A stretch of 36,520 nt of DNA from Cryobacterium sp. (GTDB lineage Bacteria > Actinomycetota > Actinomycetes > Actinomycetales > Microbacteriaceae), in NCBI GenBank assembly GCA_014376815.1, contig JACMQV010000207.1, positions 1-36,520 of the forward strand, written 5' to 3'. Of the stretch, positions 6,622 through 30,035 are shown one piece after another. A program made the translations under genes and the position numbers. The notes beneath the pieces were generated by a model. The model made no database searches. It had not been told where the DNA came from and saw nothing but the letters and a program-made list of their open reading frames with translations. Each line of letters begins with the position of its first letter. Within the stretch, counting starts at the first letter, position 1.

Positions 6622-6708
6622 CAACGAATTCGACGGAGATTCTGGCCCAAACGCGCCAGAATCGCCTGATCCGTCCTCGTGGGAGCAGAATCTCCGTCGA
6701 ATTGGTTC
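6622..6708. repeat. Interspersed inverted-repeat element, copy 1
   Basis: This 87-nt element has 18-bp perfect arms AATTCGACGGAGATTCTG (6627-6644) and its complement (6686-6703), flanked by CAACG and GGTTC. A nested alternative hairpin, ATTCTGGC/GCCAGAAT, forms within the left half. It fills the gap between the convergent ends of pstB and the PLP enzyme gene, so it could serve as a bidirectional terminator. Copies 2 and 3 at 12002 and 20327 share the arms but not the centre. Confidence 0.85.
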
Positions 6709-7638: not shown

Positions 7639-8583
7639 TCAGGAACTCTGGATGGCGACAATCGGGTCGGTGGTGGGCTGCCGGGAGCCGCCGCGGGGTT
7701 CAACGGTCACCCCGATCGTGTCTCCGGCCGTCAGCGTGCCGTCAAGCACGCGCCAGACGGTGCCCGTGCCGGAGGAGTCGAAGGTGCCGGCCGAGACCGC
7801 GCCGTCGCCCCCGATGTACCAGAGCTGGTAGTCCTTGTCCGAGGGCAGGGACGGCAGGTCGTCGACCAGCAGCGCGGAGAGCCGGCGTTCGCTGGACCAG
7901 ACCAGGGTGGCCGGATGCCCGTCGGCCGTGGTCGTCGACGCCCGCTGCGAGTCCGGGGCGGCGTTGATCTCCGCCAGACTGGCGGCCTGCTGCGTTTCGA
8001 ACCGGTTCGTGTTGAACGCCTGGCCGGCGAATCCTCCGGCCACGAACAGCGCCACGGCAGCGGCGGCGGCCAACAGGAGTGCGACGGGCCGCTGGAACCA
8101 GCGCGCGCGGGCCCGCCCTGCGGCCGCCCCGCCGCCCGGCGGCGCGGCCGTTGGGGCTGTTGGGGGGACATCCGTCGTGTCGGGCTTCGTCGCCTCTGGC
8201 GAGGTCGTCTCGGGCGCCACCGCATCGGGCTTCGTCGCCTCGGGCGAGGTCGTCTCGGGCCGGGTCGCCTCGGTCCTGACCGGTTCGGCCTGCGGAGCGG
8301 CAGCCTGAGCGTCCAGTGCGGGCAGCTGGGGGGTCGACGCGAGCTTCGCCATCAGCGAGGCCCTGAGCCCCGCAGACGGCTGCACGGGCGCCGTGGCCAG
8401 GCCCAGCGCGACTGCGGTGTCGCCCAGCTCGGCAGCCTCGATCCTGGCCTGCTCCGACTCGGCGAGGTGCTCCTCGTACTCGGCGGCGTCGTCTGCTCCG
8501 AGCGCGTTCAGGGCGTAGGCGCCGGCCAGGTCGCCCGGGTGGTCAGTGCGGTCGTCGCCGTTCGGACGGGAGTTCTCGCTCAT
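7639..8583 (-). CDS. rskA: Anti-sigma factor, RskA family
   Basis: This is a 314-residue single-pass membrane regulator expected to hold the neighbouring ECF sigma factor inactive. Residues 1-60 form the sigma-binding domain (GDLAGAYALNALGADDAAEYEEHL). They lack the cysteines of zinc-binding anti-sigma factors, reading HLAESEQ where many relatives have HLxxCxxC. A Pro/Thr/Glu-rich linker follows (about 95-150) with a duplicated PETTSPEATKPD motif. The transmembrane helix is about 167-187, followed by the extracytoplasmic RskA domain. The start overlaps the sigK stop in ATGA, as expected for a stoichiometric pair. Release probably needs regulated proteolysis, as in the family. Confidence 0.9.
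   Translation of the reverse strand: MSENSRPNGDDRTDHPGDLAGAYALNALGADDAAEYEEHLAESEQARIEAAELGDTAVALGLATAPVQPSAGLRASLMAKLASTPQLPALDAQAAAPQAEPVRTEATRPETTSPEATKPDAVAPETTSPEATKPDTTDVPPTAPTAAPPGGGAAAGRARARWFQRPVALLLAAAAAVALFVAGGFAGQAFNTNRFETQQAASLAEINAAPDSQRASTTTADGHPATLVWSSERRLSALLVDDLPSLPSDKDYQLWYIGGDGAVSAGTFDSSGTGTVWRVLDGTLTAGDTIGVTVEPRGGSRQPTTDPIVAIQSS
8180..8260. repeat. 45-bp period repeat inside rskA
   Basis: A 36-base segment at 8180-8215 recurs at 8225-8260 with a single base change. It encodes the duplicated PETTSPEATKPD linker on the - strand. The unit keeps the reading frame. Confidence 0.8.
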
Positions 8584-12001: not shown

Positions 12002-12088
12002 GAACCAATTCGACGGAGATTCTGGCGTAAACAAGGGTTTTCGCGGCCTCCAGGGTCTCTGCGGCCAGAATTTCCGTCGAATTCGTTC
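12002..12088. repeat. Interspersed inverted-repeat element, copy 2
   Basis: This is 87 nt, the same length as copy 1. The arms AATTCGACGGAGATTCTGG (12007-12025) and 12065-12083 pair with one mismatch, which would be a G-U pair in RNA. The outer GAAC/GTTC (12002-12005, 12085-12088) extends the stem. The centre differs from copy 1 except for CTGGC followed a few bases later by AAAC. It lies between the convergent ends of the hexapeptide gene and the DUF445 gene. Confidence 0.85.
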
Positions 12089-13515: not shown

Positions 13516-13553
13516 CGAGGAACGGATGCCGGCGGGCGCGCCGGCCGCGGGCG

Positions 13554-13613
13554 TTGTCGGGGTCAGAGCTGTCGGGGTCAGAGTTGTCGGGGTCAGAGGT
13601 GTCGGGGTCAGAG
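13554..13613. repeat. 15-bp tandem repeat over the galM stop codon
   Basis: Four copies of NTGTCGGGGTCAGAG lie head to tail at 13554, 13569, 13584 and 13599. They differ only in the first base. On the - strand each unit contains TGA in the galM frame, so the galM stop (13608-13610) is followed by three more in-frame stops. Confidence 0.9.
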
Positions 13614-19388: not shown

Positions 19389-20273
19389 CTACCGGCTGAG
19401 CGCGAGTTCGGCGGCCTTGACCACGTTGCAGAGCAGCATGGCCCGGGTCATCGGGCCCACGCCGCGTGGGTTCGGGGAGAGGAATCCGGCCACCTCGGCG
19501 ACGTCCGGATGCACGTCCCCGGTCAGGGTGCCCTTGCCGGTGATCGGGTCGGTCACCCGGGTGATGCCCACGTCGAGGACGGCGGCGCCGGGCTTGACCC
19601 AGTCGGCCTGGACCAGGTGCGGAACCCCCACGGCCGCCACGACGATGTCGGCACGGCGCACTTCGCCGGGCAGGTCGACCGTGCGCGAATGGGTGAGGGT
19701 AACCGTGGCATCCAGGCCCTTGCGGGTGAAGAGCAGGCCGAGCGGGCGCCCGACCGTGAGCCCGCGCCCCACCACAACCACGCGGCGGCCGACGATCGGC
19801 ACGTCGTAGCGGCGCAGCAGTTCGACGATGCCGGCCGGAGTGCAGGGCAGCGGCGAGTCCAGCTCGCCCTCGATGCCGAGGACCAGCCGGCCGAGGTTCG
19901 TCGGGTGCAGGCCGTCGGCATCCTTCGACGGGTCTATCAGTTCGAGCATCGCGTTGTCGTTGTGTCCGACCGGCAGCGGCAGCTGGATGGTGTACCCGGT
20001 CACCTCCCGGGCGGAGTTGAGGTCGGCAATGGCCGCACGCACGTCGGCGCTGGTGGCGGAGGCCGGCAGGTCGACGCGGATCGACTCGATGCCGACTTCG
20101 GCGCAGTCGCGGTGCTTGCCGGCCACGTACGAGCGCGACCCCGGGTCGTCGCCGACCAGCAGCGTGCCGAGCCCCGGAACGACGCCATGCGCCCGCAGTT
20201 CGGTGATGCGGTCGATGAGCTCGGACTTGACCGCGGAGGCGGTCTTGACTCCGTCGAGGGTGATTGCCGTCAT
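19389..20273 (-). CDS. folD: Methylenetetrahydrofolate dehydrogenase/cyclohydrolase FolD
   Basis: FolD interconverts 5,10-methylene-THF and 10-formyl-THF through two activities, using NADP. The 294-residue protein has the catalytic lysine K53 in [15 protein letters not shown], the aspartate D119 in [12 protein letters not shown], the dinucleotide loop [14 protein letters not shown] (170-183), and the C-terminal [15 protein letters not shown]. The ATG at 20273 was chosen over upstream frames because it begins right at the family N-terminus; GGATC is a weak ribosome-binding site. It follows glyA on the same strand across a 248-nt gap that contains inverted-repeat copy 3. Confidence 0.95.
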
Positions 20274-20326
20274 TGTGGATCCATTCAATTCAGTCGTTCT
20301 CAGATGCGGGTACCGCACCGGCCGGG

Positions 20327-20414
20327 TAACGAATTCGACGGAGATTATGAGCGACACGCGGGTGACGGATGCCGTCAGCGCGTTGGTAGAGCAATATCTC
20401 CGTCGAATTCGTTC
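20327..20414. repeat. Interspersed inverted-repeat element, copy 3
   Basis: This is 88 nt. AACGAATTCGACGGAGAT (20328-20345) is perfectly complementary to 20396-20413. The centre differs from copies 1 and 2 and contains its own small hairpin TGACGG-ATG-CCGTCA. Unlike the other copies it lies between two genes in the same direction (glyA then folD), 54 nt upstream of folD, so it could modulate folD expression. Confidence 0.85.
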
Positions 20415-20521
20415 GCCGCCAGGGCGGGGCGCGGCCGGACCGAGACGCGCCCCGCGCGGGGCGATGGCGGCGCGGGGCGGCGCGGGGCGGCCAGCTTGCG
20501 GGGCCGGCGCCACGCGGCGCG

Positions 20522-21820
20522 CTACTGCTGCAGGCCGGGGTACAGCGGGAAGGCCTCGGTGAGCACCTTGACCCGGGCGCGGAGGCCCTGGATGTCGGCG
20601 TCCGGCTTGAGCGCCTCGGCGATCACGTCGGCGACGACGGTGAACTCGGCGTCGTCGAAGCCGCGGGTGGCGAGGGCGGGTGTGCCGATCCGCAGGCCGC
20701 TGGTGACCATCGGCGGGCGCGGGTCGAACGGCACCGAGTTGCGGTTGACCGTGATGCCCACGGCGTGCAGGGCATCCTCGGCCTGCTGGCCGTTGATGGG
20801 AGAGTTGCGGAGGTCCGCGAGTACGAGGTGAACGTCGGTGCCTCCGGTGAGGACGTCCACGCCGCCGGCGCGGGAGTCGTCGGCCATCAGGCGGTCGGCG
20901 AGGATGCTGGCGCCGCGCAGGGTGCGCTCCTGGCGCTCCTTGAACTCGGGCTCGGCCGCGAGCTTGAACGCGGTCGCCTTGGCGGCGATCACATGCATCA
21001 GCGGCCCGCCCTGCTGGCCCGGGAAGACGTTGGAGTTGAGCTTCTTCGCCAGCGCCGTGTCGCGGGAGAGGATCAGGCCGGAGCGGGGGCCGGCGAGGGT
21101 CTTGTGCACGGTGGTCGACACGACGTCCGCGTAGGGAACCGGGGACGGGTGCAGCCCGGCGGCGACGAGGCCGGCGAAGTGGGCCATGTCGACCCAGAGC
21201 ATCGCGCCGACCTCGTCGGCGATGCTGCGGAAGGCCGCGAAATCGAGGTGACGCGGGTAGGCCGACCAGCCGGCGATGATGACCTTCGGCTTGTGCTCAA
21301 GGGCCTTCTCGCGCACGACGTCCATGTCGACCAGGAAGGTGGTCGGGTCGACGCCGTAGGCGACCGGGTTGTAGAGCTTGCCGGAGAAGTTGAGCTTCAT
21401 GCCGTGGGTGAGGTGACCGCCGTGGGCCAGTTCCAGGCCCAGGATGGTGTCGCCGGGCGTCGCGATGGCCGAGAGCACGGCAGCGTTCGCGGTGGCACCG
21501 GAGTGGGGCTGCACGTTGGCGTACTCGGCGCCGAAGAGCGACTTGGCCCGGTCGATGGCGAGCTGCTCGGCGATGTCCACATACTCGCAGCCGCCGTAGT
21601 AGCGGCGCCCCGGGTAACCCTCGGCGTACTTGTTGGTCAGCACCGAGCCCTGGGACTGCAGCACGGCACGCGGCACGAAGTTCTCGCTCGCGATCATCTC
21701 GAGGTAGTCGCGCTGACGCCCGAGCTCCTGCTCGAGCACGGCGGCGATCTCGGGGTCGACACGCGAGAGGGGTTCGTTGAACGTGGATCGAAGGACGTTG
21801 GTCTGCACAGAATCGGGCAC
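20522..21820 (-). CDS. glyA: Serine hydroxymethyltransferase
   Basis: GlyA converts serine and THF to glycine and 5,10-methylene-THF with PLP. The 432-residue protein has the PLP lysine K240 in [14 protein letters not shown], the cofactor aspartate and histidine D211/H214 in [12 protein letters not shown], and [11 protein letters not shown] near the N-terminus. The start is GTG at 21820, with AAGGAG five bases upstream. A ZTP riboswitch ends about 50 nt before the start. Together with downstream folD this makes a one-carbon supply unit. The sequence is full length. Confidence 0.97.
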
Positions 21821-21869
21821 GGGGTCTCCTTAGACGTCTTGAGTGGACGACGTGATGAAAATTTCGTCG

Positions 21870-21957
21870 TAGCCCAGGCGTGCGGCCACTAACCGTGTCA
21901 GTCGCTCCCCGATGGTGACCCATCTTTCGTGCTACGCCAGTTGCGACAGGGTCGAGC
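21870..21957 (-). promoter_or_regulatory. ZTP (pfl) riboswitch controlling glyA
   Basis: On the - strand the pfl consensus is clear. GTCGCAACTGGCG (complement of 21935-21947) opens the first helix. A GATGG/CCATC hairpin with loop GTCA is followed by GGGGAGCGAC, whose GCGAC pairs back with GTCGC. The 3' domain reads CCGCACGCCTGGGC (21872-21885), whose CGCC can form the pseudoknot with GGCG. ZTP riboswitches switch on one-carbon genes such as glyA and folD when AICAR phosphates signal low 10-formyl-THF. A following ACGACG/CGTCGT stem may be the expression platform. Confidence 0.87.
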
Positions 21958-21978
21958 TTAGCAGGCGCCCCCGGGGTC

Positions 21979-22317
21979 TCAACCCGTGCGCTTGCCCAGC
22001 TCGTCGACGATGAGCAGGTCGGTGCGCAGGTGCTCGCTGTCGTGCCCGGCCCGGGCCACCAGGTGCGCCGCCATCGGCGCGGTGAGGGCCTGGAACACGA
22101 CGATGGCCACCACCAGGGTGACGGTTCCGAGGGTGAAATTGTTGATCGCGACATCCGTGGTCACCGCGATCAGGCCGAAGATCTGTGGTTTGGTGGCCGC
22201 GTGCAGGCGGGTGAGCACGTCGGGGAATCGGAGGAGGCCGACCCCGGCCGCGAAGCACATCACCGCCCCGGCCAGCACCAGCACGGCCGTCACCACGTCT
22301 CCCGCGACGGTGTTCAC
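21979..22317 (-). CDS. mrpG: Mrp Na+/H+ antiporter subunit G
   Basis: This is a 112-residue membrane subunit with three hydrophobic helices. The MrpG motif GLLRFPDVLTRLHAATKPQIFG (about 28-49) is clear. The start is GTG at 22317, overlapping the mrpF stop in GTGA; earlier starts would lie inside mrpF. The last gene of the operon, it ends close upstream of the glyA riboswitch. Confidence 0.92.
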   Translation of the reverse strand: MNTVAGDVVTAVLVLAGAVMCFAAGVGLLRFPDVLTRLHAATKPQIFGLIAVTTDVAINNFTLGTVTLVVAIVVFQALTAPMAAHLVARAGHDSEHLRTDLLIVDELGKRTG

Positions 22318-28409: not shown

Positions 28410-30035
28410 ATGACGAGTGCACACCGGGGGCCTGAGCTTCCCTTGAAACATGAACACCACGAGTATCACGGTCGTGGCACGGAGACCCCCTTCGAGCACA
28501 TCTCGGACGCCGTCAACGTCCACGAGGACGAGGGGCTGCACAAGGGCCTCAAGGCCCGGCAGGTGCAGATGATCGCGATCGGCGGTGCCATCGGCACCGG
28601 ACTGTTCCTCGGTGCGGGCGGTCGCCTCGCCAGTGCGGGCCCGTCCCTCGTGTTCGTGTACGCGATCTGCGGTTTCTTCGCGTTCCTGATCCTCCGCGCC
28701 CTCGGCGAGCTGGTGCTGCACCGCCCCTCGTCGGGCTCCTTCGTCTCCTACGCCCGCGAGTTCTTCGGCGAGAAGACGGCGTTCGTCACGGGCTGGCTCT
28801 ACTGGCTCAACTGGGTGATGACCGCCATCGTAGACGTCACCGCCGTGGCCCTCTACATGAACTTCTTCGCCCGCTACTGGGCGCCGTTCGGAGACGTGCC
28901 GCAGTGGCTCTACGCACTCATCGCCCTGGCGGTCGTGCTCTGCCTGAACCTCTTGTCGGTGAGCGTGTTCGGCGAACTGGAGTTCTGGTTCGCCCTGATC
29001 AAGGTGCTCGCCATCGTGACATTCCTGCTGGTGGGCACCTGGATGGTCATCTTCGGAACGCCCATCCCCGGGCAGGAGGCCGGTTTCAGCCTCATCGCCG
29101 ACAACGGCGGCTGGTTGCCGAACGGGGTGATCGCATCCGTGCTGGTCGTGCAGGGCGTCGTGTTCGCGTACGCGTCCATCGAACTGGTCGGCACGACCGC
29201 CGGGGAGACCGAGAACCCGGAGAAGGTGATGCCGAAGGCCATCAACACCGTCATCGTGCGCATCGCCGTGTTCTACGTCGGCTCGATCCTGCTCCTGTCG
29301 CTGTTGCTGCCGTACACCGCGTACAAGGCCGGCGAGAGTCCGTTCGTGACGTTCTTCGGCACCATCGGCATCGACGGCGTCGACGTGATCATGAACCTCG
29401 TGGTGCTCACCGCCGCCCTCTCCTCCCTCAACGCGGGGCTGTACTCGACCGGGCGCATCCTGCGCTCGATGTCGCTGGCCGGCTCCGCGCCGCGGTTCGC
29501 CGGCAAGGTGAGCCGCACGGGCGTGCCGTTCGGCGGCATCCTGCTCACCGCCGTGGTCACCCTGCTCGGCGTCGGACTGAACGCGGTCGTGCCTGACGCG
29601 GCGTTCGAGATCGTGCTGAACATGGCCGCAATCGGAATCATCAGCGCCTGGGGCATGATCGTGCTCTGCCAGCTGCGCCTGCACGCCTGGTCGAAGCTGG
29701 GCATCCTCGAACGGCCGGCGTTCCGGATGTTCGGGGCCCCGTACACGGGCTACGCCAGCCTGGCCTTCCTCGTCGCGGTGCTCGTGCTGATGGCCTTCGA
29801 CTGGCCGGTCGGCACGCTCACGATCAGCTCGCTCGTGGTCATCATCCCGCTGCTCATCGTCGGCTGGTACGCCTGCCGCGGGCGCATCCTCGAGATCGCG
29901 GCCGCCCGGGAGGGATTCACCGGCCAGATGCCGATCATCCCCAACCGTCCGCTCGCCGACCGGGCGCGCGACGCCGACTCGACGAACACCGACCCGCGGA
30001 ACACCGACCCGCGGAACACCGACCCGCGGGAATAG
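28410..30035 (+). CDS. Amino-acid permease, APC superfamily (AnsP-like)
   Basis: This is a 541-residue, 12-helix transporter. The N-terminal cytosolic tail is histidine-rich ([18 protein letters not shown]). The first membrane segment carries the APC motif [17 protein letters not shown] (57-73). [25 protein letters not shown] (helix 6 and following loop) places it in the amino acid transporter (AAT) group with AnsP, GabP, CycA and Lys[23 protein letters not shown] suggests an L-asparagine permease, though substrate assignment is tentative. GGAAGAG precedes the ATG. The C-terminus ends in three NTDPR repeats. Confidence 0.87.
29985..30029 (+). repeat. 15-bp tandem repeat at the permease 3' end
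   Basis: AACACCGACCCGCGG occurs three times without change, encoding [15 protein letters not shown] directly before the stop. Identical units suggest recent slippage. Confidence 0.9.

Follow-up and report, generated by a model that had tools for sequence, protein, structure and literature searches.

In the 36,520-nt stretch of Cryobacterium sp. DNA that was analysed as a whole, hereafter called the window, glyA, encoding serine hydroxymethyltransferase (20522–21820, minus strand; Pfam SHMT, PF00464), is followed in the same direction by folD, encoding methylene-tetrahydrofolate dehydrogenase/cyclohydrolase (19389–20273, minus strand; Pfam THF_DHG_CYH, PF00763 and PF02882). A ZMP/ZTP riboswitch (21865–21954, minus strand; RF01750, 55.7 bits) lies upstream of glyA. 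A gap of 248 nt, exactly positions 20274–20521, separates the stop codon of glyA from the ATG of folD and holds the third copy in the window of an inverted-repeat element. The first-pass annotation had placed this copy between two co-directional genes with the riboswitch ahead of them, and the gap coordinates, the Pfam domains and the RF01750 match all bear this out. Gene contexts here and below were taken from a purpose-written gene finder, not from annotation; its folD start lay 15 nt too far upstream.

Measured between the outer ends of its stem, copy 3 extends from 20328 to 20413; its core is 74 nt long (20334–20407). Read on the plus strand, its left arm (AACGAATTCGACGGAGAT, 20328–20345) pairs with its right arm (20396–20413) over 18 bp without a mismatch, which is the stem that had been proposed from the letters alone. 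An inner inverted repeat, TGACGGATGCCGTCA (TGACGGCATCCGTCA on the mRNA strand), lies at 20363–20377. The RNA of 20318–20423 is predicted to fold at −55.6 kcal/mol (z −6.9), and the z values for the three window copies range from −5 to −7. The other two copies were found, by gene calls and Pfam, between convergent gene ends as described earlier: the core of copy 1 (6629–6701) lies between genes for an ABC-transporter ATPase and an aminotransferase class IV, and that of copy 2 (12009–12081) between genes for a hexapeptide-repeat protein and a DUF445 protein.

The remainder of the gap had been called unusually G-rich, correctly so. The filler that separates the element from the glyA stop codon (20425–20521) is 91 % G+C, more than any 97-nt segment sampled at steps of 10 across the 36.5 kb, and has 54 % G on the plus strand, hence it is C-rich in the glyA mRNA. 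Relatives have a different sequence at this place. Directly before folD (window 20274–20305) is a conserved leader of about 25 nt, roughly GAAYGACCGAYTGAATGGATCCACA, which C. shii, C. breve, C. cryoconiti and others have in the same position. A search of 20200–22050 gave no sigma-70-like site. Elsewhere in the window, runs of 15-nt repeats occur at 8180–8284, 13553–13612 and 29965–30024, the first and last inside predicted reading frames.

The element family and its distribution

The genome from which the window comes (assembly G000, 301 contigs, 6 % contamination) gave 97 matches to a 16-mer pattern on both strands and none to the same pattern read backward, so the family goes far beyond chance. 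From this assembly 67 complete copies were read, among which four (L027, L160, L180 and L194) share flanking sequence and may be one locus counted several times. Each element consists of two conserved arms of about 20 bp in inverted orientation, a fixed distance apart. The arms usually differ at one outer position, ACCAATTC (alpha) versus ACGAATTC (beta), and 114 of the 157 copies in which both arms can be typed clearly are alpha/beta; most stems therefore bear a C·C or G·G mismatch. The element is also polar: when orientation was assigned from the spacer only, 99 of the 114 alpha/beta copies pointed one way and 15 the opposite way. Copy 3 belongs to the rarer beta/beta type (26 of 162), which is fully paired at the alpha/beta position. 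Unpaired arms are few, 3 beside 55 elements in 1.58 Mb of genomes G012 and G008. Inversion of the spacer by recombination between the arms was rejected, as identity to the reverse complement exceeded forward identity in just 2 of 52 ortholog pairs, both with near-random identity.

Cryobacterium is taken here in the GTDB sense, with Glaciibacter superstes included. A looser two-arm pattern had at least one match in 31 of 57 genomes of the genus and at least three in 21 (range 0–127), some of the single matches probably being chance hits within genes. With a stricter pattern, matches were obtained in 4 genomes from 3 genera among 299 genomes of the family Microbacteriaceae (85 genera). The element is patchy within Cryobacterium and present in two further genera. 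Plasmid and phage carriers were rejected, since phages gave no match to the element and plasmids only two chance-level hits in Novosphingobium. In the literature, no text was found that contains the arm letters of the family of copy 3 (family A) or that combines Cryobacterium, intergenic and inverted repeat, and the arm letters of other families turned up in six texts, all under unrelated titles.

A second family, B, has arms GGCYAACTCAGGA...TCCTGAGTTRGCC that are unrelated to those of family A and is likewise intergenic, in G012 and other Cryobacterium. It is present in 16 of the 57 genus genomes, 15 of these being among the 21 with at least three element matches, a co-occurrence that includes shared ancestry. 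The centre of family B often reads CACTGGTCCG. Five copies of a third family, GTGCATAACTCCTGCAAATT plus an inverted partner, have cores that range from 77 to 119 nt; one further element, whose arms read CAACTTCGGAG, has a core of likewise 73 nt (third family and CAACTTCGGAG element at G008 C31, C27 and C34, G012 C67 and L037).

Core length, phased A/T blocks and mobility

The core was 73 nt long in 54 of the 67 G000 copies, 74 nt in 8 and 83–85 nt in 5. Between orthologs it was equal in 68 of 80 pairs, differed by 1 nt in 11 and by 10 nt in one, unlike the flanks, which are rich in insertions and deletions; the 80 pairs are not independent, and 63 of them involve loci found by exact arms. Family B showed comparable steps, with lengths of 91–93 in 58, 102–104 in 16 and 115 in one of the 75 matches considered out of 165, some of them neighbouring duplicates; the pattern allowed 86–116, and the other 24 lengths were not seen among the 75. 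The increments are thus close to one helical turn in both families, whose arms are unrelated.

Within the spacer of family A, A/T content peaks at core positions 22, 32, 42 and 52, symmetrically about the centre; the best-fitting period is 10.0 bp, a fit reached in none of 2000 permutations. Between orthologs, an A/T position stayed A/T in 79 % of cases within the blocks versus 50 % elsewhere in the spacer. The copies, like the ortholog pairs, are not independent, and the blocks may partly be due to shared ancestry within Cryobacterium. In G137, a genome of another genus, 45 of the 50 copies listed among 56 matches had equal length and the blocks lay at the same places (22, 32, 42 and 52), with A/T fractions of up to 0.94 (0 of 5000 permutations). 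A and T are interchangeable in the G137 blocks, position 22 for example being A in 28 and T in 16 copies, and complementarity between the blocks does not exceed chance. In the G137 spacers, positions 15, 16 and 18, beside the arms, do pair above shuffled sequences (p 0.002, 0.006 and 0.026), which would also come from a hairpin. An A/T period in family B was not significant in 8 copies of one length. Phased A/T blocks fit bendable DNA on a protein surface, and an RNA stem needs none. Element ends placed a whole number of DNA turns apart suggest that one protein grips both at once.

Over the 68 ortholog pairs of equal length, identity was 95 % in the arms, 61 % in the spacer and 86 % in flanking DNA, the value for the arms being overstated because entry required recognisable arms. 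Loci of G000 still held a recognisable element in 17 of 22 cases traced in G012 and in 2 of 14 traced in G008. Because orthologs keep their arms and lose spacer identity, the resident copies look selected.

Pairs of spacers in G000 had a median identity of 41 % versus 29 % for shuffled spacers, and the copies, being more alike than shuffled ones, share common ancestors. Signs of recent copying are thin, and recent movement is hardly seen: a single unlinked pair (L022/L197) has spacers 88 % identical in dissimilar flanks, and other close copies share a flank or sit in a tandem duplication (L169). The four G000 copies with a common flank are probably one locus seen repeatedly and so give no sign of movement. 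A RAYT (Y1_Tnp, PF01797) was found in 0 of 31 Cryobacterium genomes, with control genomes positive in 5 of 14 cases, and the RAYT was rejected as mobiliser on the absence of PF01797 from these 31 genomes of the genus. A scan of 188 elements (4356 combinations of k-mer and offset, the largest excess being 6 or 7 of the 188) detected no target-site duplication, 12 aligned loci showed no clean empty insertion site, and the 1.58 Mb sampled from G012 and G008 gave no element that carries a gene between such ends. Neither a binding protein nor a mobilising enzyme for the element was found. An integron attC identity (outer ends AAC..GTT) was dropped on the dispersed copies.

The family could be a purely selfish MITE, in which phasing would serve only the synapsis of the ends by a transposase and the copies in the host would be neutral. 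The terminal inverted repeats that define MITEs are present, the distribution is patchy, the similarity among paralogous spacers and the L022/L197 pair would be expected of spreading copies, and effects of helical twist have been reported for short transposons and Paramecium IESs (PMC3464196). Orthologs nevertheless keep the arms and A/T blocks as the rest of the spacer diverges, and neither the target-site duplication nor, in 1.58 Mb of two genomes, the gene-bearing relative was found. We consider this account possible but doubtful.

Gene context and the glyA-folD junction

In G012, 25 of 46 copies lie in convergent gaps, compared with 185 among the 1044 gaps on the contigs sampled from G012 and G008 (p 6e-8); divergent gaps are under-represented with 5 of 46. 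A further 16 of the 46 lie between co-directional genes, so that the position of copy 3, which the first-pass annotation had contrasted with that of the other two, is nothing unusual. The median distance from element to stop codon is 35 nt. A bias towards convergent gaps is also reported for REPs (PMC3733652) and does not by itself show termination.

The glyA-folD junction was compared in 34 genomes, with a gap in 31 and an ATGA overlap in 3. The element occupies 15 of the 34 junctions, in 3 with degenerate arms, and 16 gaps contain other hairpins. A stem score of at least 11 was reached in 31 of 31 gaps, which are not independent and involve at least four hairpin families as judged by eye; for other G012 gaps of similar size the counts were 34 of 80 (co-directional), 24 of 36 (convergent) and 6 of 61 (divergent), and for shuffled co-directional gaps 6 of 80. 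The riboswitch was present in 20 of 20 loci searched, including all three with ATGA. Outside the family Microbacteriaceae, seven junctions could be read, of which six overlap or leave at most 29 nt between the genes, and four more loci had no folD in range.

Seven species have the 74-nt form of the element at this junction, with spacers 80 % and arms 89 % identical. The inner inverted repeat TGACGGCATCCGTCA is identical in five of the seven and has one change in each of the other two. Conservation of spacer and arms is here nearer to equal than the 61 % and 95 % of the family at large, for species distances that are unmatched between the two comparisons, and the copy may have a local role. Arm mismatches at the ten core positions of the glyA-folD copies are G·U in 4 of 5 cases, which leans to RNA with a count that is too small.

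Several other sequences were noted at the junction. A second long palindrome occurs in the gap at L141, L142, L144, L145 and L147 (G010, G013, G009, G014 and G015, respectively); it centres on TGGGCCCAGGTTATAACCTGGGCC with small changes and is flanked by GGGCCCGGGCCC-rich repeats. The gap of L299 (G021) has a distinct hairpin around GCGAGAGTGCAGTTGTTGTTGC with a stem score of 25.5. The sequence GACGGATGC, the stem of several glyA-folD hairpins, occurs 332 times in the sampled contigs of G012 and G008 where 42 would be expected, an eightfold over-representation.

These stems raise the question of whether the family consists of bidirectional transcription terminators or mRNA 3′-end hairpins, with a stem-loop that acts in RNA. 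The folds of the three window copies are strong, convergent gaps are enriched, stop codons are near and every one of the 31 glyA-folD gaps holds a strong stem. At copy 3, however, the G+C-rich stem is not followed immediately by a T run, and the loop is about 50 nt; a scan of 20200–22050, the region around copy 3, gave no T-tract or terminator-like site at the copy, its sole hit being on the opposite strand within glyA. In 90 co-directional copies, mismatches between the core arms, read on the transcribed strand, comprised 25 G·U, 23 A·C and 34 others. Position 14 carries most of the G·U and A·C mismatches, and without it the numbers are 6 and 5; with no G·U bias among the mismatches, selection on the arms at the RNA level was rejected. 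At position −2, C·C or G·G mismatches are frequent in co-directional (54 of 90) and convergent (70 of 93) copies alike. Orientation with versus against transcription was 29:33, and in convergent gaps 30:32. The helical length steps and A/T blocks, finally, are unnecessary for RNA. Because copy 3 has no T-tract and neither a G·U bias nor an orientation bias was seen, the family seems not to be chiefly an RNA terminator, and because lengths step helically and A/T blocks are phased, it looks like a double-stranded DNA device. A terminator family is, in our estimate, decidedly unlikely.

The first-pass annotation had posed an alternative: either the stem of copy 3 terminates transcription, or the idea of a terminator family weakens. 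The annotation was partly supported. For the family, a terminator is a weak idea, on the missing T-tract of copy 3, the mismatch ratio of 25:23, the orientation ratio of 29:33 and the helical phase. At glyA-folD itself, the comparison of the gap in relatives, which had been proposed as a check, lends termination some support, with a strong hairpin, from several unrelated families, in all 31 gaps and an ATGA overlap in the three hairpin-free genomes. Uncoupling of folD from the riboswitch by the element would be plausible. In the mRNA, the old glyA-folD copy that many species share is probably a barrier or a hairpin for processing, which would loosen folD from the ZTP-controlled glyA message.

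DNA gyrase is a general enzyme whose strong sites are cleaved centrally within about 130 bp of wrapped DNA. That the elements are strong gyrase sites like E. coli BIME-2, with wrapped, phased A/T DNA at the ends of transcription units, is very improbable, since the location at gene ends and the resemblance to the E. coli motif, whose G/C content varies in 10-bp phase and whose sites are enriched behind highly transcribed operons (PMC6379681), are set against invariant 20-bp arms that gyrase does not require, a patchy element for a general enzyme and a phased stretch shorter than the gyrase motif.

A DNA-level reading and known systems

The reading that we prefer, and hold to be probable though well short of certain, is that of a miniature, polar inverted-repeat DNA element whose phased arms are bridged by a protein and whose glyA-folD copy loosens folD. 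Its DNA part is founded on the core lengths, the phasing and the apparent selection among orthologs. The element would work as double-stranded DNA, with a putative protein complex binding both arms on the same helix face and the phased, nearly free spacer bending into a tight loop between the bound arms. Copies would once have spread like REPINs or MITEs by a route other than RAYTs, and the putative protein, once bound, may serve the host, for example in chromosome architecture at gene ends. At glyA-folD, the old copy with its uninterrupted stem and conserved inner hairpin would separate folD from the ZTP-controlled glyA message.

A broader version, which we think unlikely, is that several unrelated families of short inverted-repeat elements in Microbacteriaceae, spread without RAYTs, serve a single host DNA-bridging system as docking sites, and that the glyA-folD site was co-opted to split an operon under riboswitch control. 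Arms on one helical face and a nucleosome-like, phased and bendable spacer would then make topological or architectural marks at gene ends.

On the preferred reading of a bridged DNA element, the one-turn steps of two families and the interchangeable 10-bp A/T blocks of one would be natural evidence for a protein holding a very short loop of double-stranded DNA, coming from bacteria in which the RAYT search found none. The riboswitch-led glyA-folD operon, either overlapping by ATGA or split by a hairpin within one genus, provides a comparative set for repeat-driven rewiring.

ERIC and Correia elements are short imperfect palindromes between genes, as is this element. REPIN-like repeats are usually taken to be single-strand hairpins moved by a RAYT, or RNA terminators. 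The element resembles the REPIN/RAYT system as described in PMC3116915 in its inverted conserved ends containing a 16-mer, set distance, poorly conserved spacer, extragenic location and many copies, and two inverted conserved ends around a variable spacer of set length, as in a REPIN, were indeed found. It differs in that no Y1_Tnp/RAYT was found in the 31 Cryobacterium genomes and in a spacer with 10-bp A/T phasing and one-turn length steps; by inspection, its arms do not look like GTAG- or CGTC-tagged stem-loops. With the CGTC-tagged REPs, as presented in PMC3733652, it shares a palindromic, intergenic nature, the lack of a dedicated transposase and a location mostly in co-directional and convergent gaps; unlike these it lacks a free CGTC tag next to a stem of 8–9 bp, its arms being 18–20 bp and its spacer about 41 nt. 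The main text of PMC3733652 does not use the word actinobacteria, but the paper names M. tuberculosis as having untagged REP-like families.

The E. coli gyrase motif and BIME-2, as described in PMC6379681, are similar in their 10-bp A/T-G/C phasing and enrichment downstream of operons, and differ in having no invariant arms and a longer wrapped region, the periodic areas of the motif reaching about 65 bp on each side. Paramecium IESs (PMC3464196) are eukaryotic, are excised in development and have weak ends and a piggyBac-type enzyme, so that no sequence relation to the element is expected. They are like it in that the lengths of the short elements cluster in steps of about 10 bp, which for IESs has been read, in the same source, as looping of the DNA between ends held in a transpososome-like complex.
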